From: Chaenocephalus aceratus
Taxonomy: Eukaryota > Chordata > Actinopteri > Perciformes > Channichthyidae
Direction: 5' to 3'
Assembly (NCBI GenBank): GCA_023974075.1
Contig: JAMFTG010000488.1
Span: forward strand, 496,001 to 560,000
Length of the DNA stretch: 64,000 bases
Below, one piece after another: positions 2,556-24,866 of this stretch. The stretch's first letter is position 1, and each line of letters starts with the position of its first letter. The notes under the pieces are model-generated. The model worked only from the letters and a program-made list of their open reading frames with translations. It was not told where the DNA came from and did not search any database. The position numbers and the translations under genes are program-made.

Positions 2556-2734
2556 CCCTAACCTAATCATTGATTGCTTCTCTGTACCTTTCTCCAGTCA
2601 AGTCAAAAGCCTTGTTGTCACCATACCACCCTCTCTTATGCACCTAACATAAGAAACATCACCCAAACTTAATTCTTCCACCTACGCAACATTTCCAGAC
2701 TCCCTCCATCCCTCTCTAGATGAAGTCTTAATCC

Positions 2735-3000: not shown

Positions 3001-3362
3001 CTCTTGCTCCTTCCACTCATCCTCAGTTGATTATCTAACCATCCCCACTTCACACCAACCATTATTTATGCTGTGATGCTACTGACCCTGTCCCCCTTAT
3101 GTTTGGTTCAGGATTTGCTGTTTTTCTTTTTCGATAATTTGTTTTATCCATTGAAAGGTGTCCTTGGGTGTCCTACAAGGCACCTCCAAATAAAAAGTAT
3201 TATTTTTTTTATTTTCTAGTATGCCACCGTCCACTTTTCCAACAACCGAGCGAATCCTCTTTCCTTCAACATGAGAGCAGCTCAACAACTCGGACACACG
3301 GAGCCACAGTGAGTCCCGGAGTACGCTGCCATCAAGTTCAGCAGTGCTGCCCCGAGGTGAGC

Positions 3363-6300
3363 CAACCCAGTCTCATAAAAAAACGTGTAATAATTACGTT
3401 GGTCCACAACGTAGGACGTAGTATTTCTACGATAACGCCTCTGAAATTGTAAAATGCCTACGTTTTTTGTCACCATTCATTCCAATGGCTGTCGTCTATG
3501 TCACGTGATCTTCACATTTCTCCCTGCAGAAAAAAAAAAACATGGCCGACATTTGTTTTATTCTCGGTGTTAAATGCCTATTTTAAGGTTAGTTTGGCGA
3601 TTAAAATGCCCTTTGATGTCATTTGATGCGAGAAATATGAGTTGTTATTTCAGATTATGTGTACAGTGGATGTACATGATCTTTAGTTTGCTAGTTATTA
3701 TGAAGATTACTTCAAGAAATGGTGTCTATACAAACGTTTTCATTGTTACCAAGGTGGTTGCTAGGGACGCTGCTATCGATATTATTTTTGTTATGTTTGG
3801 TAAAATGGTGTTATCTTTATTGCTACACCTTCCCCGTCAATATATAGTGTTGGTCCATAGTGCAAATGTATTAGTTTAACAAAATCCGCATCTAAAATTG
3901 TGGCATAGTGTGGTGCCGAGAGATGGGAGTCGGAGGCGGGGTATCAAAGGTACAAGCTAGACTTTTATTTAGCATCTCAAAACACATGTAAACAACTTCA
4001 TGCCCCGGAAGCGAAGACCGGCGGAGACAGGAAGTCCGGCTCACTAAAATGTCCGTGCAGAACAATACCCTAACCCATAGATCCGTGGGTGAATAATGTC
4101 AATCACCACAATAGATACGTTATTTTCCCCTGTGCAATTCTCCATTTACTCAACAATAACACATAATTATCCTTGTGTTTATTTATTTGTTTGATTAATA
4201 AACACAAGTTGGAGTCCGTCAGGACCGAGGGTCGGAGCAGCTCATTTGCTTTACAGAATATTACACCCGGAAGTAAGTATTCTCTCCGCTTCGCTTGACA
4301 AACCCCGTGATAGTCCTCAAGCTCTGTGATTGGAGAGTGTGCAGAGCCTCGAACAGCACTTGAAATGGGATGGAACCACGGCAGACTGTCCAAAACTGGA
4401 TTTGAACGGGTCCACCGCGTCCCCAGAACTACACATGCTGGCTATTGTGTGTTTCGCAACATGTTCTCTATCTATGGCACGTCTCTACTGGGAGTTGTAG
4501 TTTTAAAAGACGTTTTCATATTTCCCATAATAAGAAGTTGCCAGTATTAAACTGTGTACATCCCTGGAGGTTTAGGGGATAGGAAACACTCAAATGTAAA
4601 ACATATAATTAATAAATGGGTGAAAATTGCTTGTGCCCATAATGGGCAGCATTAATATATATACCCACATGCCAGCTAAGGTCAGAAGAGCTTTATTTAA
4701 CAGCTGGTCTTATGTTTGTGACCCCTGTTGCATAATAACATTACATTAATTGTGACCCCTCCTGTTGTTCATTGATGAGCCTGAAACATGCACTTGTCAA
4801 GGTTCAGAGGCACATTGTGCAAATATGGCAGTAGCCATCGATCATCTTAAGATAAGATATACTTTATTGATCCCAAGTTGGAAACATTTGCGTTACATCA
4901 GCATGTGTAACAGTTGTAAATATGCAGTGGTGTTTATTTGTAAATCATTTAGTATAATCACACAAATTCTGTGTTTTATATTCAACAATTCTGTGTTCTT
5001 TATTTATTGATTGTTCAATACCTGACAAGGCTGGAGATGAAAAACTTTGGTCACAGGTTCCTCAACAGTGAATCACAAGACATCTTTCAATATGTGTACC
5101 GCCACCATTAAATTGTCATATTCTGCACATTTCTTATACTATCTACATACATCTTATAAGAGTATAATACATATGTATAATATCAGTTCAAATAAGTGCT
5201 TCAACATAGTTAACATTGCTGGAGGTATGCACAAATATTGATAGATGTCTTGTAATGCACTGTTGAGGAACCTGCGATCCAAGTTTTTCATTCAATGCAT
5301 AACTACACCATAGGCCTATATGATATGTCAATAAACCTTAGAAAATCTTGAAATATTGAAAGGGATGTGCAAAATAGTCATTATATACAGACTTTACTTA
5401 ACTATTAGTAGAGAATAACGAGTAATGAACATACTTTATAGGGATTCTATTAATATCTAATAATAAAAATAATGAAATTCAATAACATGCTTTAACCACC
5501 AGGTGTCCCTTTATATCAGCTGTGCACCTTTATGGTGTAAATACAGCCTATCTACCAATTGGATCAAATATAAAAGTCCGCCGAATTAGTGTTGATACTG
5601 CAAGGAGACGCATTGTGTGAAAATAAATGTAAGATGTTGTTTAATTGTTGATATATTTATGATCCACGTCACGTTTCCAGTGTTGGCGGCAGTTCCTCAT
5701 GTTTGTCTAGAGGTCTTCTCATCAGGGCTCTATAAATACAGAACTACGGCAGATATGTAACATTTAATGCAGCCGAACCGTGTATTACAATGCCGTTATG
5801 TGATGACTTTCAAAGAGAAAAACAAGTACACTCGGAATAAAGTGTTTTCGGTCTGTTTCCGGTATTTGTTAATGACGATGTGCTGTGAGATGTGAGACTG
5901 GAATTGTACAGGGGAAAATAATGTTTCTGCACCATTTTAGATGCGGATTTTGTTAAACTAATACGTTTGCGCTGTGGACCAACACTATACTTTGACGGGG
6001 AAGGGGGGTAGCAATAAAGATAACACCATTAAACAGTTACACAACATAACAGAAATAATATCGATAGCAGCGTCCCTAGCAACCACCTTGGTAACAATGA
6101 AAACGTTGTATAGACACCATTTCCTGAAGAAATCTTCGTAATAACTAGCAAACTAAAGATCATGTACATCCACTGCACACATAATCTGAAATAACAACTC
6201 ATATTTCTCGCATCAAATGACATCAAAGGGCATTTTAATGGCCAAACTAACCTTAAAATAGGCATTTTACACCGAGAATAAAACGAAGTTCGGCCATGTT

Positions 6301-6475
6301 TTTTTTTCTGCAGGGAGAAAATGTGAAGATCACGTGACATAGACGCCAGCCATTGGAATGCATGGTGAAAAAAAACGTAGGGATCTTACAATTTCAGAGG
6401 CGTTATCGTTTAAATACTACGTCCTACGTTGTGGACCAACGTAGTTATTACACGTTTTTTTGTGAGACTGGGTTG
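3363..6475. mobile_element. Long-armed foldback DNA element A with 7-bp target duplication
   Basis: The ends read CAACCCAGTCTCA and TGAGACTGGGTTG. The outer 530-550 bp on each side are inverted copies of each other (3363-3900 against 5935-6475). The flanks are identical 7-mers ggtgagc (3356-3362 and 6476-6482). The interior has no transposase. It includes a LINE-type tail near 4846-4890 and sequence shared with the element at 58700-61405. No superfamily is assigned: the 7-bp duplication and CAAC...GTTG ends are the diagnostic features. Confidence 0.85.
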
Positions 6476-6482
6476 GGTGAGC

Positions 6483-7186
6483 AGATCCTCACACGGGAAC
6501 ATTACCCTCATTACAAGATTACAATGATATTACTTTGAAATATATGAATTGCTTTTGTATGCCTATTGTCACTGAGAGATATTATCATGTATTTCTCAGG
6601 ACCAGACCAGAGGACCCAGCTGAATTGTACAGTGTGATCACCAAAGCCCACTGAACACAGCAGGCTGTGCATTGAAGTCTGATACTTCTGTTTTATGACA
6701 ATGAGTAAATTACGCAGGTTAATATTGATCTTTAAAATATATTTCACAGGATGGGCCTCTCCAAAAATGTGCCATGAGACAATTATGTATCATAAAAACA
6801 CATAACATGTATTAATTCAAAAGAGTTCGGCTTAGCTTTTTTTACTCTTAGTTGGACATCTGTAGTAGCAAATGTATTCAATGCATCAACATTTGAATTT
6901 AACTTGGTTAGCATTACTTTTTCCCAATAAAAAAGTAGTAGCTTTCGGTACAACAAAGGATGTGATCCCTAACTGGCTTCCCACTGCCAGCATTTTTTTA
7001 TTGGGAAATTCTAGATATTAGCATTAGATTTTAATGATAAAAGACAATTACCTTTTTACATTTCTCTAATTACAACATTTAATTACTTCATATAACATTT
7101 ATCATCCAAAGGATAAATCAAAATGATGTTGAGGCTTACTTGACCTTATATCAGAAATGTCCCAACTACTATTGGATTAAATGCCT
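6483..7186. other. Unassigned AT-rich sequence
   Basis: Only short random frames are present. No repeat edge or RNA gene was recognised between the foldback element and the TTAA-flanked element. Confidence 0.4.
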
Positions 7187-7190
7187 TTAA

Positions 7191-8207
7191 GGTCCCCTAT
7201 TATACTGTTTTTCATCAATATATCACAGGTCTCAGATATATCCAGAGCCTGTCTCTGATTGGCTGAAACACCAAACAGATCATTGCAGCATTACCCATAA
7301 TCCCCTCTGTTTCAGCCCTGTTTCCAAAGTGCTGATTCTCTGTCTGTTACTTTAGATGAAAATAAGGAGCCCCTCCCCACGCCCCTCTGAGAGACATTTG
7401 GTTACAAAGAACTCAATGGAGCTCTAGGAGGAGATTCAGGTGATAAGGGGGCGGGGTTACCTTGGTTTCTGATTGGCTAATGGTTACACAAGACAACACA
7501 TCATTATGACATCATAAAGTGGCCAAAATCTGATCAGCTCATTTTCAGACAGGTTTTTATAGAAATGGATCAGGACAAAAAGAGAGAGAATCTTTTTTTC
7601 CTTAAACTTTCAGAGTATCTTTCCACAGAGGGGACACATGTTGATGTAGAAGAGACATGAAGAAGAGGGGACACATGTTGATGAAGAAGAGACATGAAGA
7701 AGAGGGGACACATGTTGATGAAGAAGAGACATGAAGAAGAGGGGACACATGTTGATGTAGAAGAGACATGAAGAAGAGGGGACACATGTTGATATAGAAG
7801 AGACATGAAGAAGAGGGGACACATGTTGATGTAGAAGAGATATGAAGAAGAGGGGACACATGTTGATGAAGAAGAGACATGAAGAAGAGGGGACACATGT
7901 TGATGTAGAAGGGACATGAAGAAGAGGGGACACATGTTGATGTAGAAGAGACATGAAGAAGAGGGGACACATGTTGATGTAGAAGGGACATGAAGAAGAG
8001 GGGACACATGTTGATGTAGGAGAGACATGAAGAAGAGGGGACACATGTTGATGTAGAAGAGATATGAAGAAGAGGGGACACATGTTGATGAAGAAGAGAC
8101 ATGAAGAAGAGGGGACACATGTTGATGTAGAAGGGACATGAAGAAGAGGGGACACATGTTGATGTAGAAAATAAATGAAAAAGTGAATTTTGCATATTAG
8201 GTGACCT
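7191..8207. mobile_element. TTAA-flanked non-autonomous DNA element
   Basis: The left end reads TTAA then GGTCCCCTATTATACTG. The right end, reversed, reads TTAA then AGGTCACCTAATATGC, so the termini are inverted and sit in TTAA sites (7187-7190 and 8208-8211). Elements with TTAA duplications belong to piggyBac-like or Kolobok-like groups; the sequence does not show which. More than half of it is a 37-bp tandem array. Confidence 0.65.
7630..8170. repeat. 37-bp minisatellite, about 14-15 units
   Basis: The core ggggacacatgttgatg recurs every 37 bp with variants (gtagaag, gaagaag, atagaag) between cores. As 37 is not a multiple of three and the minus strand lacks stops in the unit, all three minus frames stay open with the same peptide motif. 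These apparent proteins are artefacts of the repeat. Confidence 0.9.
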
Positions 8208-8213
8208 TTAAAA

Positions 8214-8875
8214 TGTCACATATTCATATCTTTCAAAAGGTAAAATAAAAGTTATTCTGCTAAAAGTAACACATTGAACATGATGGATGAATGGATTAAA
8301 ACCCACCCGATAAAACCTTTTGTTATTGGAAAGCACATTGGGTATTGGAGTGGAATATGCATTAGCTGATCTTGGTGCAGTTTCATACGGCTGCCACTAG
8401 CTTTTAGTAAAGAGATGTATGTTTCACCAATAGAAAAACCATTTAATAGAAACTGGTGGGTATATAACTATCTTTGTGTACAGTATTTTAACACACATGC
8501 TTTGTTGGCCATCACGTTTTATTAACCAGCTCCATTATCAACATGTTATGTGATATTATGTTTTTGTAGTTTTAAGGTTTTTATCATCAGAGCTCATTAT
8601 AATTGTGTATCTCACTTTGCTGTTAATTCCTGTTCTGGTTGGCTCTGTAAGCATGTTTCTTTTTCTCTTCTGTATTGATTTGGTTTGATTGGTATAAATA
8701 TAATTATCTGTTTGAAATGTTAACCGCCCATATCTAATGCAATAAATGTTGATGTTAAAATATCAAAGTGCATTTGTTTGATTGTAAAAACAGTGGAAAC
8801 AGTAAAAACAAATTAAGCTGCAGTGATGAAAGTGCAGTGTTTGTCAGGATACATTAGAAGGTGAACACAGTGAAG
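8214..8875. other. Unassigned AT-rich sequence
   Basis: No coding frame or repeat boundary is supported here. Confidence 0.4.
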
Positions 8876-8889
8876 GCAGACTGTCACAC

Positions 8890-9440
8890 TGAGTGAGAGA
8901 AGTGTGTGAGAGAAGTGTGTGAGTGAATGAAGTGTGTGAGTGAGAGAAGTGTGTGAGAGAAGTGTGTGAGTGAATGAAGTGTGTGAGTGAGAGAAGTGTG
9001 TGAGTGAGAGAAGTGTGTGAGAGAAGTGTGTGAGTGAATGAAGTGTGTGAGTGAGGAAGTGTGTGAGTGAGTGAAGTGGTGAGTGATGAGTGAGTGAGTG
9101 AAGTGTGTGATGAGTGAAGTGTGCGTGAGTGAGTGAAGTGTGTGAGTGAAGTGTGTGAATGAGTGAAGGTGTGAGTGAGTGAAGTGTGTGAGTGAGTGAA
9201 GTCTGTGAGTGAGTGAAGTGTGTGTGAGTGAGTGAGTGTGTGAGTGAGTGAAGTGTGCGTGAGTGAAGTGTGTGAGTGAGTGAAGTCTGTGAGTGAGTGC
9301 GTTGTGAGTGAGTGAAGTGTGTGAGTGAGTGAAGTGTGTGAGTGAAGTGTGTGAGTGAGTGAATTGTGTGAGTGAAGTGTGAGTGACGTGTGTGAGTGAA
9401 GTGTGTGAGTGAGCGACGTGTGTGAGTGAGTGAAGTGTGT
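8890..9440. repeat. Irregular gtgtgtgagtgagtgaa minisatellite
   Basis: Short units built from gtgtgtgagtgag(t)gaa repeat over about 550 bp with many length variants. The long minus-strand frames are made only of Thr/His/Ser/Leu repeats and are not genes. Confidence 0.9.
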
Positions 9441-10175
9441 GGCCACAGCACAGCCACTGTCCTGCTCTTCCCTTGCGGACATACTTGTGGCTAAGCTTCA
9501 GTTTGGGCTGCAGGTTGTTTGTCGTCTGATTTTACACATGGATTTCTGAAATATTGACAATTGAAATGTAAAACCTCAGATAAGCACTAATGAAATAATT
9601 TTATTAATTAGGTTAATAATTAGGCAGTTAATAATTGTAACTGTAAAATGTCTTCAAAGTAATACAGACCAAATCTAAACACCCAGAAGTAAGAAATAAT
9701 CAACATTTATCAATTATGATAAACATATATTGCGCTTGTTTGTTGCATGAAGTAACCTCAAATATATTCCTCATGCTGTTGAGTATATTGTTTATTCCCA
9801 CTGGTCACTCCTCACCCTGTGAAAACATGTTGCACTGTTTATTCTTAAAACTAGCCAGCTCGTTTTGAAGATATAATCTTCTCTTATTGATCTTCACCAA
9901 ACCCTGCCAGTTCCTTCTCTTGGAACGCTCAGCTTTGATCGTATCTGACTGTTTATCACTCAGAGACTGCTCACACCTCAGGGTTCTGCCTTTATTTGTA
10001 TTGTTCACACCTAGCTCAGCAGCAACCTGACCGCAGAGGGAACAGAGAGGAAACTGACAAGCACACACTCTTATTATCAATACTGTCCCTACTCATTTAT
10101 GTATGTTAAGGATTCATCAGAGACATGTAGACCTCCGACAATTGGGGAACTTGAAGCTTGACCTCGGTACAATTC
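9441..10175. other. Unassigned sequence with one modest open frame (9805-10080, minus)
   Basis: A 91-codon minus-strand frame contains a basic stretch (KAERSKRRNW, INKRRLYLQNELASF). I do not recognise it, and no splice or promoter context supports it. The remainder shows nothing identifiable. Confidence 0.25.
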
Positions 10176-10183
10176 CTCTAAAT

Positions 10184-10687
10184 CAGGAGTTCTCAAAGTG
10201 CGGCCCTCGGAAATGTTTCTGGCGGCCCGCGATAGTTAATGTGACACGCTGAAATGCATGCGTTATATTTTAATCCTCCATGGTTCGTATCTAGTAAGAA
10301 TTAGAATGGAATTTAAGAATGGTAAAACTGCGCCCCCTGGGTTGTTATTCCTAAATTATGAATGACAGCTTGTGGAAAGTTTGCTAGACTACTGGTTGCA
10401 TGGCAACTAGGCATCTCGTGAGTTGCGGTTAAGCGGAAAATCTGTTGTAAATTATCAGAATCAGAAACGGGAGTTAGCTAGCGATTTTAGCTAGTCACTG
10501 TCTGTAGATAACCCAACTTTGTGTCCTCTGCAAGTTCTTAATGTATACTGTATGTATAATTGGTTAGTACAATAAAGAAAGGATTTGTTTTGGAATTATT
10601 TTGTGTTACGTTTTTTGTTGGGCGGCCCTCAATCCAATATTGGGTACCTAAATTGGCCCTCACTCATCAAAACGTTGAGAACCCCTG
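10184..10687. mobile_element. hAT non-autonomous element with perfect 8-bp target duplication
   Basis: The termini CAGGAGTTCTCAAAG and CGTTGAGAACCCCTG are inverted. The flanks are identical 8-mers ctctaaat (10176-10183 and 10688-10695). It lies just upstream of the Ig V-like exon, within what would be its gene's intron. Subterminal gcggccctc/ggcggccc blocks are also inverted. Confidence 0.9.
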
Positions 10688-10777
10688 CTCTAAATAATAT
10701 TAGTAGTATGATCCACTTTTTCTCATTAACTTATTGTTATGGTCTTATTATAGTTTCTGGTGTGTTCTGTGTTTCAG

Positions 10778-11118
10778 TGGTTCAGGGTCAGGGTGGCTGG
10801 GCAGTGACTTGCTATTCTACTAAGATCTGTGCAGTGAACGGATCAACAGTGGAGATAAATTCCAGCTACACATACCCATATACATGTGTTGTTAACACAG
10901 TAGGAAAAACATACTGGTTTACTAAACAGAATGATGGTCAACCTGTAGATCTGACCACAGACTGTATGCAGGTTGTGTAGAGGATCTCTGTGAAAACAAC
11001 ATCTGCACTCTGAGAATCAGAAACCTGAGAGAGAGCGACTCAGCTGAGTACATGTTCAATATCAAAACAAACAACGAGGCATACGCGGGTTATCCTGGAA
11101 CCACTCTGTCTGTTTAAG
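10778..11118 (+). pseudogene. CD22-like immunoglobulin V-type exon, broken
   Basis: A good acceptor (tctgtgtttcag) precedes VVQGQGGWAVTC, a start typical of fish CD22-like/siglec-like V domains. The next segments are CAVNGSTVEI, YTYPYTCVV, KTYWFTKQNDGQPVDL and, in another frame, CTLRIRNLRESDSAEYMF. The Cys expected just after VEI is replaced (EINSS). A stop follows MQVV and a frameshift separates the N and C halves. A stop also sits at the 3' end before the GTAACA donor. In intact relatives this domain forms the membrane-distal part of a lymphocyte surface receptor. Here the lesions make a functional product unlikely. Confidence 0.75.
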
Positions 11119-11468
11119 GTAACATTTACACTGGACATTACGCCCTCTGGTGCATCTGGTGCGGGGAAAGTTCGTCCGTCTCCGGTTCTTTTTCCACGTG
11201 GAAGGCCCCTGCACTGGCTATCCATGTAGCACCTCAGCTTATTTTTATTTTGCTCTGGGGCCGAACTGCATGTCTGTACACCAGTGTTTGGAAAGTTCAC
11301 TTTCTACATGAACTAGTTTAATTCACAGTTCACACATTTTAAAATGAACTAGTTCAGTTCATAGTTCATAATTCAAAATTATGAACTAAAGTTCATGGTT
11401 TCAAAAGTGAACTAATTTCTAGTTTATAGTTATTTTTTCAATACGTTGCTGCGAGCTATTATTTGTCT

Positions 11469-11476
11469 CCTGTACG
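11469..11476. repeat. Outer 8-bp target duplication cctgtacg (partner 22458-22465)
   Basis: This 8-mer lies immediately left of the left hAT copy. The identical 8-mer lies immediately right of the right hAT copy, 11 kb away. It marks insertion of the whole hAT-insert-hAT block, or recombination into a resident hAT copy, as one event. Confidence 0.9.
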
Positions 11477-12957
11477 CAAGCCAGCCTTAACCTGCCATCA
11501 GGCCCTGGGGCAGGTTCCTCCTCCAGATGAGTGACGTATCGGGCCTCCCTCATGTATTTGTAAGGTTTGCCGATGGCTCCCCTTCACGTAGCAAGTCTTG
11601 GTCATCCTCTCCATCTCCTCCAACAGATAATGTCCCTCCTGTCTGTTTTTCCTCTCCCGCTACTCCAACGCTATCAGAACCAGACGGCCTACTTGGCTCC
11701 GAGGCCGGCACCGCTGGTGCTCGGTACAGAACTAATCTGTCCTTCCTCCTCATCCTGGCCTACAGGTTTACAATAACGTGTAAGCTTGCGCATTTTTTGT
11801 AATAGCTGCTTGTCTCGAAATCCTTTTCCCTCAACAATTTCCTTTTCCGAGCGCCACTCTCAAAGTTTTTATTTTCTTCTCAAACTTTTTCTCCTAAACA
11901 ACCTTCATCTGTTACTCAATCACTCGCAATTGGAATAAGTCACATGTGAAACATATTCTCATTCTGATTGGCTGTTAAGTGGTGCCCACTGACTGTTTCG
12001 GAGTCATAATTTTTTTTTGAAAAATCTCTGGAATCCATCGATCTGATTGATTAGCGGAGCAAATGATCAAAATACTACGGAGGGAAGATATTTTCGTTTG
12101 GATTACTGGAAGCTTACGAGTGTGTGAGAGTGTGTATACGTGTGTGTGTTTGTGTATTTTTGCATTTGTGTGTATTATGTTTGTTTCCCAGGGAAAACCC
12201 TCACGAGAAACACCGGCTGTTGTTATGCCTGCTGTGACGTCAAGTTACTCCGTTCTCCGCTTGTAATTATGCCGTCACAAGCTACAAGTTGTATTTATCA
12301 TCTGAATTTGCCGAAACAAGTTAAATATTCTGAAAGCCAAGACTTTATTTGAAAACAGATGAAAACAAACTTTAACGTAACCTGTCGTCTAATCTATGAT
12401 TACTATACGCTTTGCATTAATAATTTCAGCGGAGGCGGCGCTTTGGAACAGCAGAGTGGCAGGGGAGAGCTGTCATCTTCCCTTTACAAGCTTAAAAAAT
12501 GTATTTATCGTGTGATTTTGGAAATAAAAGCTAACTTTGTTTATTTAAAATGTAAAAAAAAACATCCGAAATAAAACTTATTTTTTGATTGGCTCATGTG
12601 ACGACCCCTGCCTCACTATCTCTGGTGGTGGGTGTGTGTGTGGCCCTTTAATGACTCTCCCTCTGTGTGTGCTCACGGGAATTGAGGACACCTGGCGGAT
12701 GGAGCTAGCCGGATAAAGGACTGGACCGGATCTCGCTCACTCTCTGGCAGGAGGAAGGGCAGCCACGACCAGCTGACCTCTTGTTTTGCCTGTTTGTGTC
12801 CTTCAGCAGCAGCCAAATAAACTATTTTCTATTCACGCCCTCGTTTGTCGCGTGTTTGTTGTGGCTGAGAGCTAAGCCATGACACTCATGATAGGCCCCG
12901 ATCTCCGTAGGCCCCTGGGCTTCAGTCCAGGTCAGCCCGTGCATTAAGGCGGCCCTG
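11477..12957 (-). mobile_element. hAT element E, left copy (with solo LTR inside)
   Basis: It starts CAAGCCAGCCTTAACC and ends GCATTAAGGCGGCCCTG, so reversing the right end gives CAGGGCCGCCTTAA as the inverted partner. It is a direct duplicate of 21155-22457. The minus strand near 11527-11890 encodes a decayed hAT transposase N-terminus (basic RKRKLL-like segment, then PVGQDEEE and SEPSRPSGSD). The catalytic region is deleted. The 288-bp LTR at 12597 accounts for most of the length difference from the right copy. Its flanks do not match each other: cctgtacg on the left, cctccacc on the right. Confidence 0.85.
12597..12884 (+). mobile_element. Solo LTR
   Basis: The segment begins TGTGACGACC and ends CCATGACA (TG...CA). 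It contains an AATAAA near 12816 and is flanked by ctca on both sides. The right hAT copy has the uninterrupted site ggctcatgatagg near 22382, so the insertion is directly visible by comparison. The internal coding part has been lost by LTR-LTR recombination, the usual origin of solo LTRs. Confidence 0.75.
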
Positions 12958-13313
12958 CCTCCACCAAAATCCCCCCGGAGGTACTTTATCTCTCCGCGGT
13001 TGTTGTAAGCAGTGGCCAAATGACTGGCTTTACAATCCCTGTGGAAATATGACAGCTTTGAATACATGTAATGAAATGACAAAGTGACAGAACACGATGG
13101 ACGTTAGCTTTAACCGGGGACACAGATGTTGACGGGTAGCAGAATAAGTTGCAACACTAGTAGCCTACAGACATCGACAATTGAACAAAGAGTACCTGGA
13201 CTGTAAGTAGGAAGAGATAAACTTTGTATACAGTTGTTCTGCACATTTGAAGTTCTATAGTTTTTAAACTCAGAGTGAGCATTTTCAAGTATTTGAGGGT
13301 TGTCTTGCTCCAT
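12958..13313 (-). pseudogene. ttc32: TTC32 5' part: exon 1 and the first half of exon 2
   Basis: Exon 1 (13196-13313) starts with an ATG giving MEQDNPQILENAHSEFKN. After a 1-nt frameshift it reads NFKCAEQLYTKFISS and ends at a GTACTC donor. Exon 2 starts at 13038 after ttccacag and reads CKASHLATAYNNRGEIKYLR, then GDFG. This is the signature of TTC32, a small tetratricopeptide-repeat protein of about 150 residues whose function is poorly known. The exon stops at the hAT boundary at 12957. Its continuation lies 8 kb away at 21069-21154, at the other end of the segment. The frameshift in exon 1 and the cut make it a pseudogene here. Confidence 0.8.
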
Positions 13314-13660
13314 TGGCCCTGAATTCTGTTAAGGTTCGTTGTGTTTCCTAAAGGCGGAAGTGACAACACACAACAAAAGCGCCCAATCATGTTTTAGTGC
13401 GTCTCAAGTAGGCGGGGCAATAACAACTTCAAAACGTCTTTCATTTAGCGCCTAAATCAACTTATCATTTTGAGTTGATTATATAGGATATCATTTCTAC
13501 ATATGTTGATGCTTCTCTGCATTTGCTTGGAGTTATTAGGGTACTGGTTGACACAGAACCTGCTTTTATTAATATGTCACTTAAAATTGACCACAGAAGA
13601 TGCAAAACATTGATAAAAACGACAAAATAAATAAATGTGGCCATTTTTTTTTTTTTTTAG

Positions 13661-13666
13661 TTTATT
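13661..13666 (-). promoter_or_regulatory. Polyadenylation signal of the zona pellucida gene
   Basis: AATAAA on the minus strand lies about 150 bp past the predicted stop codon at 13813-13815, a normal distance for a 3' UTR. Confidence 0.5.
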
Positions 13667-13812
13667 TTTTTTAAAATACACGACTCGTTATTGTCATCCA
13701 TCAATATAAAAGGCAGTACAGTACATTCATTGATACAACTGTTCCCAAACAAAACAATGAACAAAATGACATAAGGTGCAAATGACAACATGTAAACACT
13801 TGTAGAAAAGAT

Positions 13813-16800
13813 TCAAAGGTTAGACAGAATAATTGCCCCAGAGGAGATCTGCCTTTGGCGTGTTGAGTCGGTGCTTCTTCGCTCTGCAAAACAAGTAAAG
13901 ATTACCAACTGCACATCCAGATCGACTACATTTGTTCAGACTCGGTCACTTACCCTTTTTTACACCTGCAGGTCTTGAGTAGCTCTGACCTGGAGGATGC
14001 ACACACTGGCCTCTGCAGGAACCATCTGCCTGGCTGCTTGTGTCACAAATCACTGCATCACAGTGGACATAGATCTGTGGACAGACAGGATGATTTATTA
14101 CACATGGCTACATGCAGCAGTGGCCAAAAGACTCCAGATTTGGATTTACAAGTCTTACCTGGTCTTTCAGAACCTCGTCATCTTTAGTGAAAGTGAACAT
14201 CTTTACAGAGAAGCGCTTGATGTGGGACGGGACTAAAACTCTGGAGTCACTCACAACGGGATGGAAAATGGTTGCATAGCTGTCATTGCGATTCTCACAG
14301 CTAGTGAAGGAATTCGAAAGTTAAAATAAAGCAGCAGTTAAACAAATGAAATGAGTAGTTAGTAGTTAGTTTTAAACAACATTACCTGTCCACAATGATG
14401 TCCCAGCTTGGCAGAGATGTCCTATCTTCATAAAGGGTTGCCCAACAGTTCTCAGCAATGAGTTCCAAGCTCGGGTCGGTAGAATGCATCAGCTCCACCT
14501 CAAAATACAGAGGCTGCTGCAGATATTTCACCACTGGATAATCCTCTGCTTGGTAGAAGAGCTCGTAGGATGGATCTGCAGGAGAGAAGTCCCGTTAGAG
14601 ACAGGAGGCCTGGACATTTACAGTTTCAAACCTTTATTTAATCTGATCGGTCCATTGAGATCATAGATCTCTTTTTCAAAGGAGACCTGCAAACAGTGTT
14701 TTGTATGCATGAACAAGTTGTAAAATTCCACCATGCCTTGGGAAAGCCTCATCTGCACCATCAGCTGCCCGGTGCCGATCTCTGCAGCGGGCTCATAGGT
14801 TCTTGGTTTAGCGCTGAAGGCAACAGTCTGAGTCTCATTGACCACATAGAAGCAGGAAATAGTTTGCCTATTGGGGGAAAAAAAAATATATAAATGCATA
14901 CATTGAAGGTGTTCATCTCCAATTAGACATAATCAAATATTTTACCTGTAATCAGGATCAACTGGTGATGTGTTTGCTGCTCCTTTGGCGTTGTTGTAAG
15001 ACAGGCGGATCTCATTTTCATACATCATGTAGTTGTCAAAGAACTATTTAACAACAAAAACGCATTAACATGTGACAAAAAAACCCTTTTGATATTTAAA
15101 TGCGATTCACACTCACCGTTCTGGTGGTTCCACAGGTATCCACCCTGAAGGAGAAATATGCAACGCGATCGTCGCTGAACTGTGGTGTGCAGGACTGGTC
15201 CTTTAGCGTCAGCTGACTTGGCTTCAGATCACGAGTCAATTCAACCTTCACAGCCACAGCGGTCATTGTGCCATTGGGGTGGCACTCTGGAGGAAGAAGC
15301 AGACAATGTGTAAAGCAACACAAATCCATCAATTAAAGCAGCAAATATACTTACATGTTCCATCTTACCTGTTGGTTTTAAGGGGAAGTAGCAAGCCAGA
15401 TAGAGATCAGCAAGCACCCAGTCGTTTGCACGATCCAACAGAAGCAGGTCAATTCTGGATTTGACTGATTCTGCAGTGAGCAGCTGTGGAAAAGAAAGTA
15501 AAGTTAGCCAATGCAGAAGATCTATGGTGGGATTTTGTAGTTTTGACATACCTCGAAAACAGCGTCCTTGGCAGTGTATGGCAGAATGAGGCTGAGGTGT
15601 GTGCCGTTCTCATATAAATTGTAGTCTTCAGCCATCTCAGCCGTCAGCTCTCGAGGTCCAACGATAGCCTTTAAATTAGAGCCGTGACTCCCGAACTTCA
15701 CGCTGATGTAAAACTGGTTCTGGTCACAGGTGCCAGCCATGATGGGTAGCACTAGAGCAGCAAAACAGGCATTATCCATTTGATTGTGTTGCTTTTACTC
15801 TTATATAAGTTTCATTTAATTTTAGAAAACATAATTTTCATGAAGATATGGTCAAAAGCAAATTCAATATGATCTCACCAATATCCTGCAGAGAGGCCTG
15901 CAGGTCGACCGGGAGACCAAAAGGAGTTTCTTCAGGCAGGACGATCAACCCAAAGATCAGAGGGAGGAAGTAGGATGTAACCAAGCGCTCAGGATTCTGC
16001 AACAAATGAAATAAAAGCTCAGCAACACTGAAAATATGCTGGTAAAAAGTGATATTTTTAACCTATAATGTCATACATGTTTTAAGACAACATCGGCATC
16101 AAAGGGCACTTGAAGAGAGAAGCTCTTGGAGCCATTAGCCAAGCTGTGTTCCTGGACTGTGAAGCCTTTGGCATTGCTCTCCTCAACAGTGAGGACCCCG
16201 GTGGAGAAGGTGATGTTCCTCAGCTCAACGTCATGGAGGAAGGTTCCCAAGAGAACGCTGAATACCCGAGTCTCTGGGACAGTGTCTGAGGAACAGAAAA
16301 GTGGCAGGTTTACAACTTCTAAACCAGCCTCAACATTGATAGAGAAACTTTGAGTAGTTGGATTGAGTGCTATTTAAAAAACTAAAAAGTGCCCTTTGTA
16401 AGCAAAAGTAGATGTTGTACTTGGCTTCAAATCCCATCCAAACACACCATTTTGCAAAAACTGAAGACTTTATTTAATGGGTTTAGCAGTCTTTAGGATA
16501 TATCCGAGCAAGCCCGAGTTCAAATGTAATGTTGTTCATACCTACTAGAACATTTGACTTACCATCCAGGATTTGGGGAGATTGAGGCATCAGAGGGGTC
16601 ATGATGGGGAACAAAACCTTGTATCTGGTATCATCTTGGGTGTCATCTTCCCTCCACAGTACCTCGAGCATGGGCTCCACAAAGTAGGTGATGTGGTACT
16701 GGTAATCTGGGGCATGGCTCTGCAATAATTCATGACATTTCAATAAAACATGCAAATGCACTAGTGACTCTTGCATTTCTAATCTAGAGATTTCCCCAAC

Positions 16801-18797
16801 CTTGTAGTAACCATCAGGCGAGCCCACTGGGATCTCGACGACGATGTGGAAGTCTGTGGTGCTCAGTGTGTACCCCCGTGCGGCCATCTGAGATCTATCA
16901 AGCCTCTGCCCGTTGATTCCCATGTGCATTTCTGAGACTGTAATTCTGCCGTCCAACAGAGGAGTCACACGGCGAGGTACGTGCCAAGAGACCATATCCT
17001 CGGTGAAGAGGACGCCACCTGTTAATGACAAATGGAGCTGTTGAGTTTAACTGTGCAACAATTAAGCTCACTGTGAAGGCAATATGTTGCTCAGGACTCA
17101 CCTTTGGGACAAGCAGCTGCCAAGTTCACTACATTCAGACCCTGTGGTGCCATGTAGTAGGCGCTCACCCTGAAAACTTCCATGGAGACTCCAGCCACCT
17201 AAAGAGAGGAGAGGTTTACTATAATTGACATGGAGGGAAAGAAACACTGTATAGGAGTGTGTTGCTTACATCCTCTGAATAAGTCTCTGCTGTATTGTAC
17301 GGGCTTCGCATAACCAGGCGACTAGTGGTAGTTTTGGCAGCGTAGCCGGCTTGTTCAGCCTCTTGCAACACCATGGCCACTGGTTCTGGGGTGTAAAACG
17401 TCATCTTCCAGATACCTTGTGATGCACCAGAGGCCTACAGGAAAGAACAAATAATAATTAAATCCTCATTGGTGTAGGGAGGAACTAAACTGTAGTATCT
17501 GAACGGTTTAATTCAACATACTTCAAGCTTGGCGTTGAGCTTCTCGTCTTTACCATCCCGAGTCTGACCCTTAGCTTCAGCATCAAGGTTAGCCATGTGG
17601 TGCGAAACCTAAAACAGAAGATGGTGGTTTTAGCATTCGTTTCCATACACACAAGATGGTGGACTCGTCAATGTAAAGATGACCTACTTCCATGTAGTTC
17701 CTGTCGCAGAGGATCTCCCTGGAGGCCCAGCGAGTGTAGCTGCAAGTCTGAGACACATCATGACTGACCACGTCTGATGGATTCTCGCCGTACATCTGGA
17801 GTCTCAAGCCAACGTTAAATGTAGCATCATCCTATAAATATAAAAAAAAAACTAAATTAAGTGAAACTCCAATATTCTTTGGTTCCAGCTTCTTTGTCAT
17901 TGAAAATGTAATATCCTTGCCTTCAGGGACACATTTGAAGTCTAAATGGATATTTGTGAATGTAACAAACAAGTCCAGAAAGTACCCAGTAGATTCATTG
18001 AGGAATACAGTTTTGAGTGGAGCAGTGCTAATATTTTAGGGATGTGCCAAACAAAAAAGGGAAATGCACTTTGGGTCTTTTAACGGTAAGGGGTTACAAA
18101 TAAATTCAGGGAAACACAAAAATGGGAGCAACCATGTGTTTGTTGAGCCATTAATTCAGTCACTTGAGACAGAATTAGCACAGCTACACTTGGTAGAAAA
18201 TTACATTGAATGCTGTTAAAAACACTTTATCTCAAACAAACCTTGTTGTCCACAAAGCAGCCCATGAGGGAGGTGTAGATTATTGTGTTTCCCCACGGGT
18301 CAGACTCCATGCTGTATCCACACTGAGCAGCCATGCTAGGTGTTAACAAAATGTGCTTGGTGCCATCTGAGGGGAGACAATAAGCTTTGTCAGGGTCCCC
18401 TTTCCTCAGTGATGAACCAATCAGCTGCATTATTAGCAATTAATACTTACTGATAGCCTCCACCTCAAGCTGGTTTCCCACTGCTAAAGCCTTGTCCAAC
18501 GACAGTCTCATTACATTTGCGGCACAGTCAGACCTTAACCCACTGCCTGTTAAAAGAAAAGGCTTGTGAGGAGAATGTGAACCGACTTAATATGCTGTGT
18601 AAAATGACTTCATGAGAATTGAAGCTTACTTGACAGCGAATTTAGCTTCACATTAGGCCTGGCTTGACACAAGATGATAGCTGCAGCCATCCATAACAAA
18701 CTTGAACACATAAAACACATCATTTAGAGACAATTAAGTACACACATAGAAAGAAATCTACAAGAAATGTAACTTACATGTTCCCAAGCCTCAGCAT
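13813..18797 (-). CDS. Zona pellucida (ZPAX/ZP2-like) egg-coat glycoprotein, about 20 exons
   Basis: This spliced gene encodes a secreted egg-envelope protein. Exon 1 (18778-18797, MLRLGN) and exon 2 (18630-18700) give a hydrophobic signal peptide (LLWMAAAIILCQA). An alternative start without exon 1 is ATG at 18723. Later exons include 18451-18546, 18242-18366, about 17691-17833, 17523-17609, 16802-17019, 16563-16721, 15552-15752, 15118-15287, 14159-14300, 13954-14074 and the last at 13813-13883. The exon at 15118-15287 carries a ZP-N signature: ECHPNGTMTAVAVKV, DQSC, then YFSFRVDTCGT. The C-terminal part ends IYVHCDAVICDTSS, a KKERRS basic site and ILSNL-stop, with no membrane anchor. Most exons are open with GT/AG borders, so the gene may be functional. 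ZPAX is the best guess; ZP2-like is the alternative. It lies wholly between the two hAT copies. Confidence 0.75.
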
Positions 18798-18983
18798 GTT
18801 GCAGTTTGTAAGCAGTAAAACCAAAAAGAATACAGTCAGTATCAGAGCTTGGCAATGTCCAGCACACCTTCCAACAAAAACACAAGTCTAAAAGGAAGGG
18901 CACTGGATGATTAACTGAGACATCAGCAGCTGCTTTATATTCCACTTAACGACAAAGCACAGGTGAGGCTTGTTAAGAATTCT

Positions 18984-18998
18984 ACACACACACACGCA

Positions 18999-19048
<50 letters not shown>
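18984..19048. repeat. (CA)n microsatellite
   Basis: A run of about 30 CA units with a few CG variants lies just upstream of the zona pellucida gene. Confidence 0.95.
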
Positions 19049-19049
<1 letters not shown>

Positions 19050-19449
19050 GGTGAGCTGATGTATGCCTAGTTTATTAAGAACATATTGTAAAAACATATG
19101 TATGGAAAGGAAAAACACACATTTTTCAGTAGTGTAAAAAAAGTATGTATTGTTCAGCAAAAGTAGATTTGTATTTGATATATATTACTTTTATATATTT
19201 GAAGAAGCAACTAAATAATCCACAGTTAATAATGAATTAAACTTTTCCTTAAAATCACATGTGCTTTTGATTTTTCCTTTGAGCCTCCTTATAATGACTG
19301 TAATCTAACACTTGATTATTGTTTGTATATATTCTCAAACCACTAAGGATGCACTAACATTTATTACAGACAGTAAAACCCGAGCTTATCGTTTCACCCG
19401 GGTCGATTTTTCTGCTCTGTCCAATTATGCAATGATATATGTTAATTTA

Positions 19450-20093
19450 CAACCCAGTCTCACGGCATTTCGTGTTCACCAACACGATTTGCTCCTTTTT
19501 TTCGTGTTGCACAGCACGATTTTAAAAGCAATGTATGTCTACTGGTAATGTGTTTCGTGCCTGCAGGCTGCAGCACGTCTTTTTCTCCGGTCGGGTCGTG
19601 GAAGACCGGAAGCTGTGTGGTTCATAAAAACATGTTCTTACTCAATATCAAGCCACAATTATTGCTTTTATTTTAAATCGTATAATTTCGGACTTTGGTT
19701 GCCGTCTGTGAGGAAAATAAATGGGGCTCAGAGCCTCAGGATACTGAAATCTGTATTTTAAAATATTTGTTCCTTCTAATTTGTTATTCTTTTCAAAATA
19801 ACACACTGTTATTTACTCACCAATAACACACAATTATCCTTGCTTTTATTTATTGGTTTAATTCCATAATCTCGGGCTTTTTTGGTGTCCGTCAGGAACT
19901 GAATTTCAAAATAAAAATAACCGGAAACAGACGTAGGCCTATAAGGGACATTTCGAGCATCATTGCGATTGTCAACATTTCTGAGTTTAGGATGGCCGAA
20001 GACACTACACTACCCATAATCCGCAGCTATCGTTTAGGACTACAGTCTCCGTAAGGTTACGCAGAGCGTCAAACAGCTCTGCCCCCCCAAAGC
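19450..20093. mobile_element. Foldback-family remnant (left end only)
   Basis: It begins CAACCCAGTCTCA, identical to the terminus of the element at 3363. The interior (about 19800-20050) matches the arm modules at 43690-44000 and 3990-4330. No opposite TGAGACTGGGTTG end follows, so the element is truncated near 20094. That makes this edge a candidate for the joining point of the mobilised segment. Confidence 0.65.
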
Positions 20094-21060
20094 AAACCAG
20101 AGGCCTGTACTACGAAGCTGGTTCAACCTGACCTGGATATGTTTGAGTTAGCCGGTTGGCCTAATCCAAAACATACGCGCTCTCGCTAAACTGTACTACG
20201 AAGCGAGTTATCAAGTGGATCGCTCAAGCCAGCCGTGTCCTATCAAGTTAGGTGCGCGTTCACATGAAAGGAGTGGTATTTGGAGCATTCGAGTGTTTGA
20301 ATGCGTACATTAACAGGTTTATGAAATCACTGCCCCGTCTAAAACACGAGTGGATCTGACTTTAATTACATTTGTCTCGAGTGTTTCATCAAATTAATGT
20401 GTTGCTGAAAATAATACTTCTGCATACAGTATGTGACACTGTGAGTGTTGCACGGATACGGCTCAGCTGACTCAGATAAGGAAATATATGATACATTATG
20501 AAGTGATATGCCGCGGACTGTTCTGTTACTTTGATCCGGTTACTTATGTTGTGGCAGATATTTAATTAAGCTTTCTTAACGCTAATGTTATAATAGTCAG
20601 ATTGCTCTGAAGATGGGAGGTGATATTCTATGAATGTTCACGTTCACACAGATTCAGTTGTCATGACAATATTCATATCAAATAGAAAAAGCCATTTAAA
20701 TGTACAAAGAGGTGTATCCTTCTCGTCTAGTTATGTTGTACAATGCTGCATTTATTTGGGGTCAATAGGTCACATTATATGGAAGCTATTGTAAAAAAAA
20801 ACCGTTTTTATTTATTTTTAGTTTTATAATAATCTAAAAAGAAAAAATTGACTAAAATCCACAAGAAAAGAGGTTCTGACAGTTAGTGAAGCAGACCTAG
20901 AAAACACAAGTGAATATCAATCCAATATCCAACCTATATATACAATTATTTTGACATTTATTTTGAAGCAAAGCGGAAGTGAATTTGTTTTACTCTGTCA
21001 GGCTTGAAAATAACAGATAACTCTATCTCCTGTGAACTTTGGACTAAAAGGGGTCTCTGT
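20094..21060. other. Harbinger-MITE-like sequence and unassigned flank
   Basis: aggcctgtactacgaagctgg near 20101 resembles the start of fish Harbinger-type MITEs, and a second tgtactacgaagc lies near 20193. A clear opposite terminus was not found. The remainder to 21060 is AT-rich and probably TTC32 intron. The third TTC32 exon was not detected. Confidence 0.3.
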
Positions 21061-21068
21061 ACCCTTAC

Positions 21069-21154
21069 CTAGTCTATAGTGGATGAGTCCTCTGTAGTAG
21101 AAAGGTGTCTCATAGCGGCTGTCACTCTGTATTGCTAAAGAGAAGTCCTCCACC
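21069..21154 (-). pseudogene. ttc32: TTC32 exon 2, second half
   Basis: Reading away from the hAT copy on the minus strand gives VEDFSLAIQSDSRYETPF then YYRGLIHYRL and a GTAAGG donor at 21063-21068. This is the tetratricopeptide segment that follows ...YNNRGEIKYLRGDF in TTC32. Joined across the hAT site with one copy of cctccacc, the two halves form a single exon, but about 8 nt short of the family spacing, so the frame is offset. The following exon is not found in the segment. Confidence 0.8.
21147..21154. repeat. Inner 8-bp target duplication cctccacc (partner 12958-12965)
   Basis: This 8-mer abuts the inner side of the right hAT copy and the identical 8-mer abuts the inner side of the left copy. 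It is the original insertion site of a hAT copy inside the TTC32 exon, since TTC32 coding sequence continues on both sides. Confidence 0.9.
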
Positions 21155-21879
21155 CAAGCCCGCCTTAACCTGCCATCAGGACCTGATAGGTTTTGTAGGC
21201 CCCCTATTTAAACAACAAATCAAAGTCATTTATAGCCTCGGCAGGCTCTGTGATCGCACTTCTCCACTCTGCTCTACGCGCGCCTGGTCCTCTCCTCCAG
21301 ATGAGTGACGTATCGGGCCTCCCTCATGTATTTGTCCGGTTTGCCGATGGCTCCCCTCCACGTAGCAAGTCCTCGTCGTCCTCTCCATCTCCTCCAACAG
21401 ATAATGTCCCTCATGTCTGTTTTTCCTCTCCCGCTACTCCATCGCTATCAGAACCAGACGGCCTACTTGGCTCCGAGGCGCCGCTGGCGCTCGGTACAGA
21501 ACTAATCTGTCCTTCCTCCTCATCCTGGCCTACAGGTTTACAATAACCTGTAAGCTTCGGCATTTTTTGTAATAGCTGTTTGTCTCGAAACTCCTTTTCC
21601 CTCAACAATTTCCTTTTCCGAGCGCCACTCTCAAACTTTTTCTTCTCAACTTTTCTCCTAAACAACCTTCATCTGTCACTCAATCACTCACAATTGGAAT
21701 AAGTCACATGTGAAACATACTCTCATTCTGATTGGCTGTTAAGTGGTGCCCACTGACTGTTTCGGAGTCATCATTTTTGAGAAAAATCTCTGGAATCCAT
21801 CGATCTGATTGATTAGCGGAGCAAATGATCAAAATACTACGGAGGGAAGATATTTTCGTTTGGATTACTGGAAGCTCAC

Positions 21880-21922
<43 letters not shown>

Positions 21923-22457
21923 TGTATTTTTGCATTTGTGTGTATTATGTTTGTTTCCCAGGGAAAACCCTCACGAGAAACACCGGCTGTTGTTATGCCT
22001 GCTGTGACGTCAAGTTACTCCGTTCTCCGCTTGTAATTATGCCGTCACAAGCTACAAGTTGTATTTATCATCTGAATTTGCCGAAACAAGTTTAATATTC
22101 TGAAAGCCAAGACTTATTTGAAAACAGATGAAAACAAACTTTAACGGACCCCGCCGTGTTATCTATGATTACTATACGCTTTGCATTAATAATTTCAGCG
22201 GAGACGGCGCTTTAGAACAGCAGAGTCGCAGGGGAGAGCTGTCATCTTCCCTTTACAAGCTTTAAAAATCTATATATCGTGTGATTTTGGAAATAAAAGT
22301 GTCATATTCTGAAAGCCAAGACTTTGTTTATTTAAAATGTAAAAAAAAACATCCGAAATAAAACTTTTTATTTTTTTTATTGGCTCATGATAGGCCCCCG
22401 ATCTCCATAGGCCCCTGGGCTTCAGTCCAGGTCAGCCCGCGCATTAAGGCGGCCCTG
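21155..22457 (-). mobile_element. hAT element E, right copy
   Basis: It starts CAAGCCCGCCTTAACCTG and ends AAGGCGGCCCTG, and is a close direct duplicate of 11477-12957 without the solo LTR. A (TG)n run of about 17 units lies at 21886-21920, longer than in the left copy. The minus frame 21411-21665 (MFRRKVEKKKFESGARKRK, then KLTGY and PVGQDEEEGQ) is the N-terminus of a hAT transposase. The catalytic and dimerisation regions are absent, so mobility would need enzyme from elsewhere. Confidence 0.85.
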
Positions 22458-22465
22458 CCTGTACG

Positions 22466-22672
22466 ATGTTAATGGGATTTGGGTTGTAGTGGATCTGTTT
22501 TGGCTCTCTTTTTTATTCGCCACTCGCACATACCGTGAAAGGCTAGTCGTGTGCTTATTCTCAATGTGCCGTTTAAGGTTTGCTGTCGACGTCGTCGATG
22601 TACGGACTTGCTTTTTCAAACCGGGCGGACACAGTTTACAGGCAAACGTTAGATTTTTTCCGTCTGAGTCAG
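22466..22672 (-). pseudogene. BED-type zinc finger of the outer hAT transposase (fragment)
   Basis: Minus-strand translation gives [17 protein letters not shown] followed by [14 protein letters not shown], that is C-x2-C ... H-x4-H as in the BED fingers at the N-terminus of hAT transposases. The frame then runs into the inserted composite at 22465, so the rest of the transposase is missing. This confirms that the 22466-22955 arm belongs to a hAT-type element transcribed on the minus strand. Confidence 0.7.
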
Positions 22673-22965
22673 TAGGCTACTGACTTTAATGTAAAACTCT
22701 TTTAAATGCTCATACGCCGACACCGTATAGTCTGACTCTGAGCGAGTGCTGCTGCAGCTGCTCTCGGCTTCGTCCATACTAATTCATCCATGTCGTTTTA
22801 ATACAGTGCTGAGAATGAACGCACTTTTGAACGCCGTTATACAGCGCTGAAAATGAACGCGTTCTCAATTATGTTCATCTAGCGGAAATACAGTACGTTC
22901 AGTTCACGTTCGCCCAAAATATGAACGCATTCATGAACGATCGTTCATTGAAGTGCTGTACACTT

Positions 22966-24866
22966 GGCGTACCACGAGCGGTAGTTAATGTCCACACAGT
23001 GTACACACAAGACCCTACGGTATGTAAGGAAATGGCATCAAATGGACACAATTAACATTGAAACTGACGACGAAATGGGCTATATATTATTTGGGCTATA
23101 AAAGTGACATTTCTGGGTGACTTTGTCAGTTTATGGAGCTTAGCTCACAAATCCTGGAGGTTCCAGGCTGAATTTGGGAGCTCATAGGCGGCCTGCCATG
23201 CGCCCCCATCCGTGGAAAAACGGTCAATTATATCTTAAAATAATCAAAAATGAAGTTTTAAAAAATTCTCGAGAAAATGACTGAGTGCCAACAGAGGAGG
23301 GGCTCCACAAAGCTCAAGTCTTCGGCGCTACGGGCGGAAGCCCCGGACACTTTTCCACTCCCCCGTTGCAACTTACAACGGAGAGGGGAAACCAAGCCTC
23401 CCCTTCTCCGACAAAAAAATGCATTCATCTTTTTCTACTTCGACTACTGTCCGCATGATTTCAGAAACCTGGTTTTTGAGAGGACTCAGAAAAAAAACGG
23501 GTGTGTGATTTCATGGAGGAATGTGTCCGCTCGGATGAATTTGTTGCCTGGAGACCCCCCAGCATGATTCTTACCAAACTTTAAGTTTTTGAACTGGTCT
23601 CTGGAGGAATGTAAGGGCAAATGGCGTCAAATGGACACAATTAACATTGAAACTGACGACGAAATGGCTTAACGCATCTCAATGGAAAAGATACTCCAAT
23701 TGCCGTTCAGTTTAGTGTACCAGCATTGACAAGAAAAGTATTAATTTGGACACAAGTGTAATAAACCGTTTAATGCACTTTTAACACTGTCCTTATTGTT
23801 TTATGTTTCATGTGGAACCTATATGCTGCAGGTCTCCCTTGAAAAAGAGATCTATGATCTCAATGGGACCAATCTGGATAAATAAAGGTTTGAAATGAAA
23901 TGAAATGAACACTCATGTCCCCACAATTCAAGCTTCTTTCCTGGGTTACAAAGTGCTGTGAAGTGCCCTGGAAGTGTCACACTATTTAAACATTGTTCAC
24001 CCACGATTGCAGCTGCTTCATTGGGTTACATCAGTGCTGTGAAGCAGCCTGTCCTCTGGGTGCGCTCTGTGGCTCTCACAGCCCGCTTCTCTCTGGCTGC
24101 TCTCTCCATGGCTGCTCTCTCCCTATATTCACAGCACTTCTCCCCGCTTTTCACACACTTATTCCTGGCTAGGAAAGCTATGTGCATCACTCTGGATCTC
24201 TGCCTAGGTGCCTTTGAGTGTGAGACCCTGCTTACAGCAGTGAACCTGCTGCCAGCATTACAAGCATATTAATCAGGTGTTTTAACACTTTTTTCCATGA
24301 AAATGATTTGTATTCACTATCATGGCGCTATATAAATCAAATTCCGGGTAATTAGGAGCACAATTGTACCTTTTACTACTATTACTTTTACTACTATTTA
24401 AATGTATTTGTTATTATATATTATTGGGCTATAAAAGTGACATTTCTGGGTGACTTTCTCAGTTTATGGAGCTTCGCTCACAAATCCTGGAGGTTCCAGG
24501 CAGAATTTGGGAGCTCATAGCCATGCGCCCCCACCCATGGAAAGAAGAAAAAAGTAAAGAAAACGGTCAATTATATCTTAAAATAATCAATAATCAAGAG
24601 TGCCAACAGAGAAGGGGCTCCAAACAGCTCAAGTCTTCGGCGCTTCGGGCGGAAGCCCCTGACACTTTTCCACTCCCCCGTTGCATTTTACAACGGAGAG
24701 GGGAATCGAGACCTCCCCTCCTCCGTCAAAAAAATTCATTCATGTTTTCCAAGCTAACTTCTGCACGAAATGGGAAACCCGTTTTTGAGTGCTTTGGCTC
24801 GGATACAATTGTTGCATGGAGACCCCCCAGTATGGTTGTTACAAAACTTTAAGTTTTTGAACTGGT
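22966..24866. repeat. Probable ribosomal-spacer-derived repeats
   Basis: A block of several hundred bp recurs: ctataaaagtgacatttctgggtgact, then ggcgct.cgggcggaagcccc and caacggagaggggaa (about 23098-23410 and 24430-24725). Another unit (tcaaatggacacaattaacattgaaactgac) occurs near 23038 and 23628. No gene is supported. Position next to ETS-like and rRNA pieces suggests intergenic spacer of the 45S array, but the repeats themselves are not diagnostic. Confidence 0.4.

Follow-up and report, generated by a model that had tools for sequence, protein, structure and literature searches.

A stretch of 64,000 nucleotides from Chaenocephalus aceratus (here called the window; positions 496001-560000 of contig JAMFTG010000488.1, or C488) holds a copy of the egg-coat gene ZPAX1 that lies between two directly oriented copies, E1 and E2, of a non-autonomous hAT-like element, E. 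We lean towards the view that the arrangement is a natural macrotransposon, in which a block of the form E-B-unit-B-E moved out of a tandem gene array and into a second transposon, H, by means of its outermost ends. When read in the sequence, the order in the window is A-E1-B-segment-B-E2-A, with A (CCTGTACG) and B (CCTCCACC) both being 8-bp target duplications: the left copy of A is at 11469-11476, E1 at 11477-12957 (1481 bp), the left copy of B at 12958-12965, the right copy of B at 21147-21154, E2 at 21155-22457 (1303 bp) and the right copy of A at 22458-22465, all on the plus strand. The E-B-unit-B-E block measures 10,981 bp.

An earlier note on this DNA, made from the letters alone, had drawn attention to this order, to the matching outer and inner flanks and to the unlike flanks of each single copy; all three hold at these positions, as does the placing of TTC32 at B and of an egg-coat gene within the segment. 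On the plus strand of the window, A occurs only at the two positions given, with one reverse-strand match at 54497, while B has three further plus-strand and five reverse-strand matches in the 64 kb. Two random 8-mers of the window are identical by chance with a probability of 3.9e-5, and the figure for both swapped pairs is 1.5e-9. As in a macrotransposon, the two copies are direct, the outer ends carry one target duplication at a site that was formerly empty, and the inner flank B comes from the donor, exon 2 of TTC32, and not from the new site.

The composite splits its host element H (11282-22955; left part 11282-11468, right part 22466-22955), a hAT-like deletion derivative that carries a BED-finger frame on the minus strand, with a Pfam score below the curated cut-off. 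The two ends of H are poor inverted repeats, and the sequence reads CTGTACAC on either side of them, at 11274-11281 and 22956-22963. We searched the whole assembly (1.06 Gb in 3032 contigs), in which the right part of H has at least 77 matches (40 of 304 candidates were scored); two paralogues, on contigs C4 and C13, were read. The one on C4 (locus L069) reads GCTATTATTTGTCT-CCTGTACG-ATGTTAATGGG, so that the two outer flanks of the window meet around a single A; it is an empty A site. In the C13 copy the frame is longer, and agreement with the window ends at the third base left of A, which makes the H of the window and that of C4 look like one deletion derivative.

A broken, inverted copy of window positions 689-20078 (~20 kb) is found at 338-368 kb of the same contig, about 148 kb away; we refer to it as copy 2. 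Piece by piece it is 96-99% identical to the window, and it takes in flanking sequence as well as the composite's left part; 61 of 7060 sites differ in the segment, and in the left flank 48 of 3142 do. The left boundary A-E-B is present in it in inverted orientation (C488:356-360 kb). Copy 2 ends before the second part of TTC32 exon 2, which leaves the right boundary, B-E2-A, with a single occurrence.

The B site lies in exon 2 of TTC32, remnants of which stand at both edges of the segment. Read on the minus strand, the segment runs from TTC32 exon 2b through ZPAX1 and a junction, J, to TTC32 exon 1 and exon 2a; the pseudogene parts, all on the minus strand, are the first part of exon 2 at 12966-13042, a frameshifted exon 1 with approximate borders at 13170-13313, and the second part of exon 2 at 21067-21146, while exon 3 has no match within the 64-kb window. 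The TTC32 reading is 86% identical to that of Dissostichus and Pseudochaenichthys, and this match and that of ZPAX1 to Pogonophryne put the window among the notothenioid fishes. Eleven TTC32 loci have a match that reaches B: exon 2 is unbroken at four of them (L044, L045, L049 and L061, the last two one base off B), and the 3' end of E is present at seven, namely the window and copy 2 (both on C488), L036 on contig C1, and L037-L040. E thus remains at B in five loci on contigs other than C488. At L036 the element is followed by the full continuation of the exon. At L037-L040 (on C2063, C1496, C342 and C558), four psi-TTC32/ZPAX1 loci, no more than the final 17 bp of E remain at B; a tandem repeat adjoins the one on C342.

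The eight exon bases that should follow B (GCTTCACC) are gone in the window, in copy 2 and in L037-L040, and are kept on C1. The resulting 8-nt frame mismatch had raised the idea that B is not a target duplication at all; this was rejected, as the unoccupied copies read CCTCCACC-GCTTCACC-AAAA. The TTC32 frame is kept if the two halves are joined with two copies of B, and not with one. The loss in the window is what one would expect of a deletion between CACC repeats, which is the mechanism that we infer.

In other fishes TTC32 is followed by ZPAX1. The order is found in fused gene models of Liparis (P0086) and Caranx (P0092), and in 20 of the 21 species listed with contigs for both genes the two lie on equally long contigs (matched by eye), the exception being Pseudochaenichthys, with its listed ZPAX1 on a contig of 46.8 kb. 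The order TTC32-to-ZPAX1 is thus ancestral, and J, which puts the 3' end of ZPAX1 beside the 5' side of TTC32 (within 13314-13812), is the new junction. J is present at 26 of the 30 loci cut from the genome, some of which may be near-copies of each other and four of which cover no more than the sequence upstream of the TTC32 start; 42 matches came out of the genome search for J, with some loci split into several pieces. On contig C24 the matches span 25.16-25.49 Mb and include two pairs that are 14.65 and 7.8 kb apart in one orientation, and further matches lie on C1, C12, C17, C19, C22 and smaller contigs. Because J recurs at so many loci, it is the join of a tandem unit, and the segment in the window is one psi-TTC32/ZPAX1 period, cut at B.

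The ends of hAT elements are short terminal inverted repeats that begin with CA. Those of E are imperfect and begin in the same way (5' CAAGCC or CAGGCC..., 3' complement CAGGGCCGCCTTAATGC). The copies with which E1 and E2 were compared are the best-scoring 28 of 40 scored, out of 3271 candidates in the genome; the E on C1 falls outside the scored 40. Identical 8-bp flanks, the target duplication of a hAT insertion, were found at 21 of the 28, unlike flanks at five, and for two no 3' end was found; swapped flanks are therefore unusual for the family. An 85-aa minus-strand frame in E2 matched no Pfam family, and there were 0 Rfam matches in 11201-23100. Alignment of 11477-12957 with 21155-22457, which had been proposed beforehand as a check, places E1 and E2 in the same family, with 45 substitutions over 1099 core columns of the anchored alignment (4.1%) and large indels. 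Near its 5' end E1 is 96 bp shorter than E2 (42 vs 138 bases), and it contains a nested insert of 286 bp between CTCATG repeats (12599-12884, plus strand), which is also present in copy 2 and in the E on C1, and which E2 does not have.

The ancestry of the two copies carries much of the argument. Against the 28 other copies, E1, copy 2 and E2 form one clade in both halves of the element, with support of 99/95 in the left half and 100/100 in the right, in trees of 31 copies whose half-tree bootstraps are not fully settled. The three have 49 derived columns in common, 17 of them in none of the 28 others, and part of the 49 cluster where the alignment may be poor. When the C1 copy is added, all four form one clade with 100/100 over all columns. 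Since the clade is the same in both halves, E1 and E2 go back to a single insertion at B, duplicated together with its unit, and the 3' ends of E at B on other contigs indicate that E-bearing units multiplied. The C1 locus has pieces of E at both ends of the unit, an arrangement of the form E-B-unit-E which another repeat interrupts at CCAACAGATAATG.

Based on this, we suggest the following route. ZPAX1 and its upstream neighbour TTC32 were duplicated as head-to-tail units, as is shown by the presence of J at 26 of 30 loci, several of them along C24. A non-autonomous E then probably inserted once, into TTC32 exon 2 of one unit, duplicating B; this step is supported by the exon-2 copies that lack an insertion and by the shared descent of E1, E2 and the C1 copy. 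The E-bearing unit would next have multiplied, which would place one E in each of the neighbouring units. A transposase supplied in trans may then have used the 5' end of one E together with the 3' end of the E that follows, and so brought the 10,981-bp block into H, with the target duplication A that is seen on either side of it. Lastly, a ~20-kb piece that includes the left end of the composite was duplicated, inverted, to a place 148 kb off on C488, where copy 2 is now observed.

Several observations weigh against this route. The E on C1 is interrupted by another repeat, and on the exon-2b side that locus lacks B and the first bases of E. C1 and E1 alone have in common the nested insert and 10 derived sites (5 in the left, 4 in the middle and 1 in the right region), of which 7 occur in none of the other copies, and E1 and E2 share 11 that are absent in C1 (5 in no other copy; 4 left, 5 middle and 2 right). 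The grouping of C1 with E1 reaches only 87/81 in the left half and 83/63 over all columns, and the approximately unbiased (AU) test leaves a grouping of C1 with E2 unrejected (p-AU 0.20 left, 0.145 all); the right half is uninformative on C1, whose row is badly aligned there. The split between E1 and E2 may thus predate the move or follow it, and exchange between E copies would explain the mixed signal. There is also a stretch in which E1 and E2 show no substitutions (0 of 270 columns, vs 25 of 487 and 20 of 342), a sign of exchange or conversion at some time; since the two are direct copies separated by 8 kb, a conversion later than the move would be enough to account for it, although a crossover during the move is also conceivable. 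Closer kin of E1 and E2 may have been missed, since 40 of 3271 candidates were scored, with the C1 copy outside them. Finally, the required donor, a contig with two successive E-bearing units, was not seen, and the part of C342 that was read has no second E junction.

A symbolic check gives the observed order for macrotransposition, and it does so as well for two other routes, so that the choice between them turns on the elements themselves. A one-unit circle carrying B-E-B, or an array template copied during break repair, could have recombined with a resident A-E-A copy in H. The stretch of ~270 identical columns fits an exchange point (permutation P 0.00025, or ~0.02 if the microsatellite is counted as a break), and a crossover was at first favoured on that ground, until the E trees reversed this preference. 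The AU test, which leaves C1 with E2 unrejected on the left, also speaks for this route. Such a crossover predicts derived sites common to C1 and E2 alone on the left, and there are none there or elsewhere, which is to say that exchanged halves between a resident and an incoming E are not seen. Moreover, the single clade that unites E1 and E2 in either half of the 31-copy trees would require the resident E itself to be a recent hop of an array E; a circle may have met such a hopped E, and we regard recombination with a resident E as a whole as unlikely. The earlier note had offered two routes, transposition of a tandemly duplicated block and a circle meeting a resident copy; the first is the one that we favour, while the second, if the resident is meant to be unrelated, does not agree with the single clade. 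Alternative transposition between sister chromatids, with E ends at A on the two chromatids joining into an E-less circle opened at B, also yields the order with both duplications, and would account for the 11 derived sites of E1 and E2 that C1 does not have. In that case E1 and E2 would have been identical at the event, whereas C1, which keeps the eight bases that were lost beside B in the window, has the nested insert and 10 derived sites in common with E1 and not with E2. The 3' end of E also lies at B in five loci on other contigs, C1 among them; we give this route little credence.

Two further explanations would do away with the event altogether. Two independent insertions of E with chance matches of their flanks were rightly dismissed by the earlier note, and we count them as refuted: besides the chance of ~1.5e-9, E1 and E2 belong to one clade and the TTC32 halves are in permuted order, leaving this explanation with practically no probability. 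The other is an assembly artefact, in which a loop of the array was spliced by the assembler into an A-E-A path. The contig that holds the window is 1.06 Mb long, E is repetitive and includes a long stretch of identity, the right boundary B-E2-A is found at one place only, and the case rests on the assembled sequence and not on reads. On the other hand, the left boundary A-E-B recurs in a second, diverged and inverted copy 148 kb away, which argues against an artefact at that boundary; the window has no N, and E1 and E2 differ by 4.1% and by large indels. We therefore see only a slight chance that the assembly has created the composite, and continue to prefer macrotransposition of an E-B-unit-B-E block.

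The gene carried in the segment (13813-18797, minus strand) is modelled with 21 exons and is open over 949 aa. The model contains ZP-N and ZP-C domains (Pfam PF23344 and PF00100), is identical at 891 of 913 residues to P0054, a ZP-domain protein of Pogonophryne, and has many fish relatives annotated as zona pellucida protein AX 1; on these grounds the gene is assigned to ZPAX1. The usual donor of exon 17 (near 14738) reads GC instead of GT in both the window copy and copy 2; the model consequently includes 35 residues after exon 17 that are without a counterpart in all seven relatives compared, and splicing at the GC donor would give a protein of ~914 aa. In copy 2 there is a 1-nt shift in exon 4. 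The window ZPAX1 departs from other fishes at 9 of 293 conserved sites; for seven annotated notothenioid copies the figure is 3 to 14, over 250 to 293 sites. Seven residues are common to the window copy and P0058 of Champsocephalus gunnari and absent in six other notothenioid copies; two shorter copies have two (P0093) and one (P0165) of the seven. P0058 lies on a 48.6-Mb contig, while two other C. gunnari copies are on a 37.5-Mb contig, which suggests that in another assembly this lineage has a copy outside the main cluster.

The window holds a number of other features. There is a glycosyltransferase family 6 exon at 35249-35974 (minus strand), an immunoglobulin-type exon (Pfam Ig_3) at 56620-57057 (minus strand), and a plus-strand stretch at 10576-10980 that has the look of an immune receptor by sequence reading, with no Pfam match. 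Two reverse-transcriptase frames lie on the minus strand at 34382-35248 and 51996-52616. Repeats comprise a tandem array of a 37-bp unit (7516-8292), an inverted pair of ~700 bp with 98.4% identity (47421-48116 and 49616-50309), and diverged direct duplicates of ~89-94% (4295-6320 with 58970-60895, and 1-1271 with 41770-43231).

Macrotransposons and Composite Insertions of the maize Ac/Ds system were reportedly described by Huang and Dooner in 2008 and by Wang in 2022. In the available parts of two papers, a genomic segment between hAT ends behaves as one transposon, with examples of 10.3 kb and 28 kb (PMC9910405), and the Composite Insertions belong to the hAT superfamily (PMC4270019); the composite on C488 resembles them in the segment between hAT ends and the 8-bp duplication at the outer ends (PMC9910405, PMC4270019). 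Unlike the maize cases, it is a natural copy in a vertebrate with non-autonomous ends, is known from sequence and not from an observed excision, and carries a whole ZPAX1 gene from an array as its cargo. A permuted order is also said to mark the translocation of cattle KIT described by Durkin in 2012. Serial translocation by circular intermediates is reported for KIT colour-sidedness in cattle and yak, in the accessible part of a paper, and as in our case a segment was placed elsewhere in a vertebrate genome (PMC10509194). The segment on C488 differs in being bounded by transposon ends and target duplications, and its permuted order is that of an array period.

For Antarctic notothenioids, the accessible portions of three papers give copy numbers, tandem contigs and timing of the zona pellucida (ZP) expansion, in which tandem ZP copies occur and ZPAX1 is among the expanded types, as it is here (PMC5059455, PMC7307600, PMC9560024); copy number of the family is reported to follow freezing conditions in Antarctic fishes (PMC5059455). 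The same portions describe no transposon-bounded ZP copy (PMC5059455, PMC7307600, PMC9560024), and the available part of PMC13131655 makes no mention of zona pellucida. In the open-licence literature we found no title, among the matches listed, on a vertebrate hAT macrotransposon with a gene, and no paper that treats zpax together with ttc32.

The ZPAX1 composite appears to have moved as a single 11-kb block, and this may be one way in which egg-coat genes spread. A natural vertebrate case, with both insertion sites backed by unoccupied paralogues, would show that hAT macrotransposition moves genes in animals, and the case makes it testable how ZPAX1 copies reached other chromosomes. We can only speculate, and think it rather doubtful, that in Antarctic fishes a freeze-protective egg-coat gene has repeatedly left its home array and reached other chromosomes through hAT macrotransposition of psi-TTC32/ZPAX1 units; if this were true, pairs of transposons would have turned a tandem gene array into mobile genes under selection.

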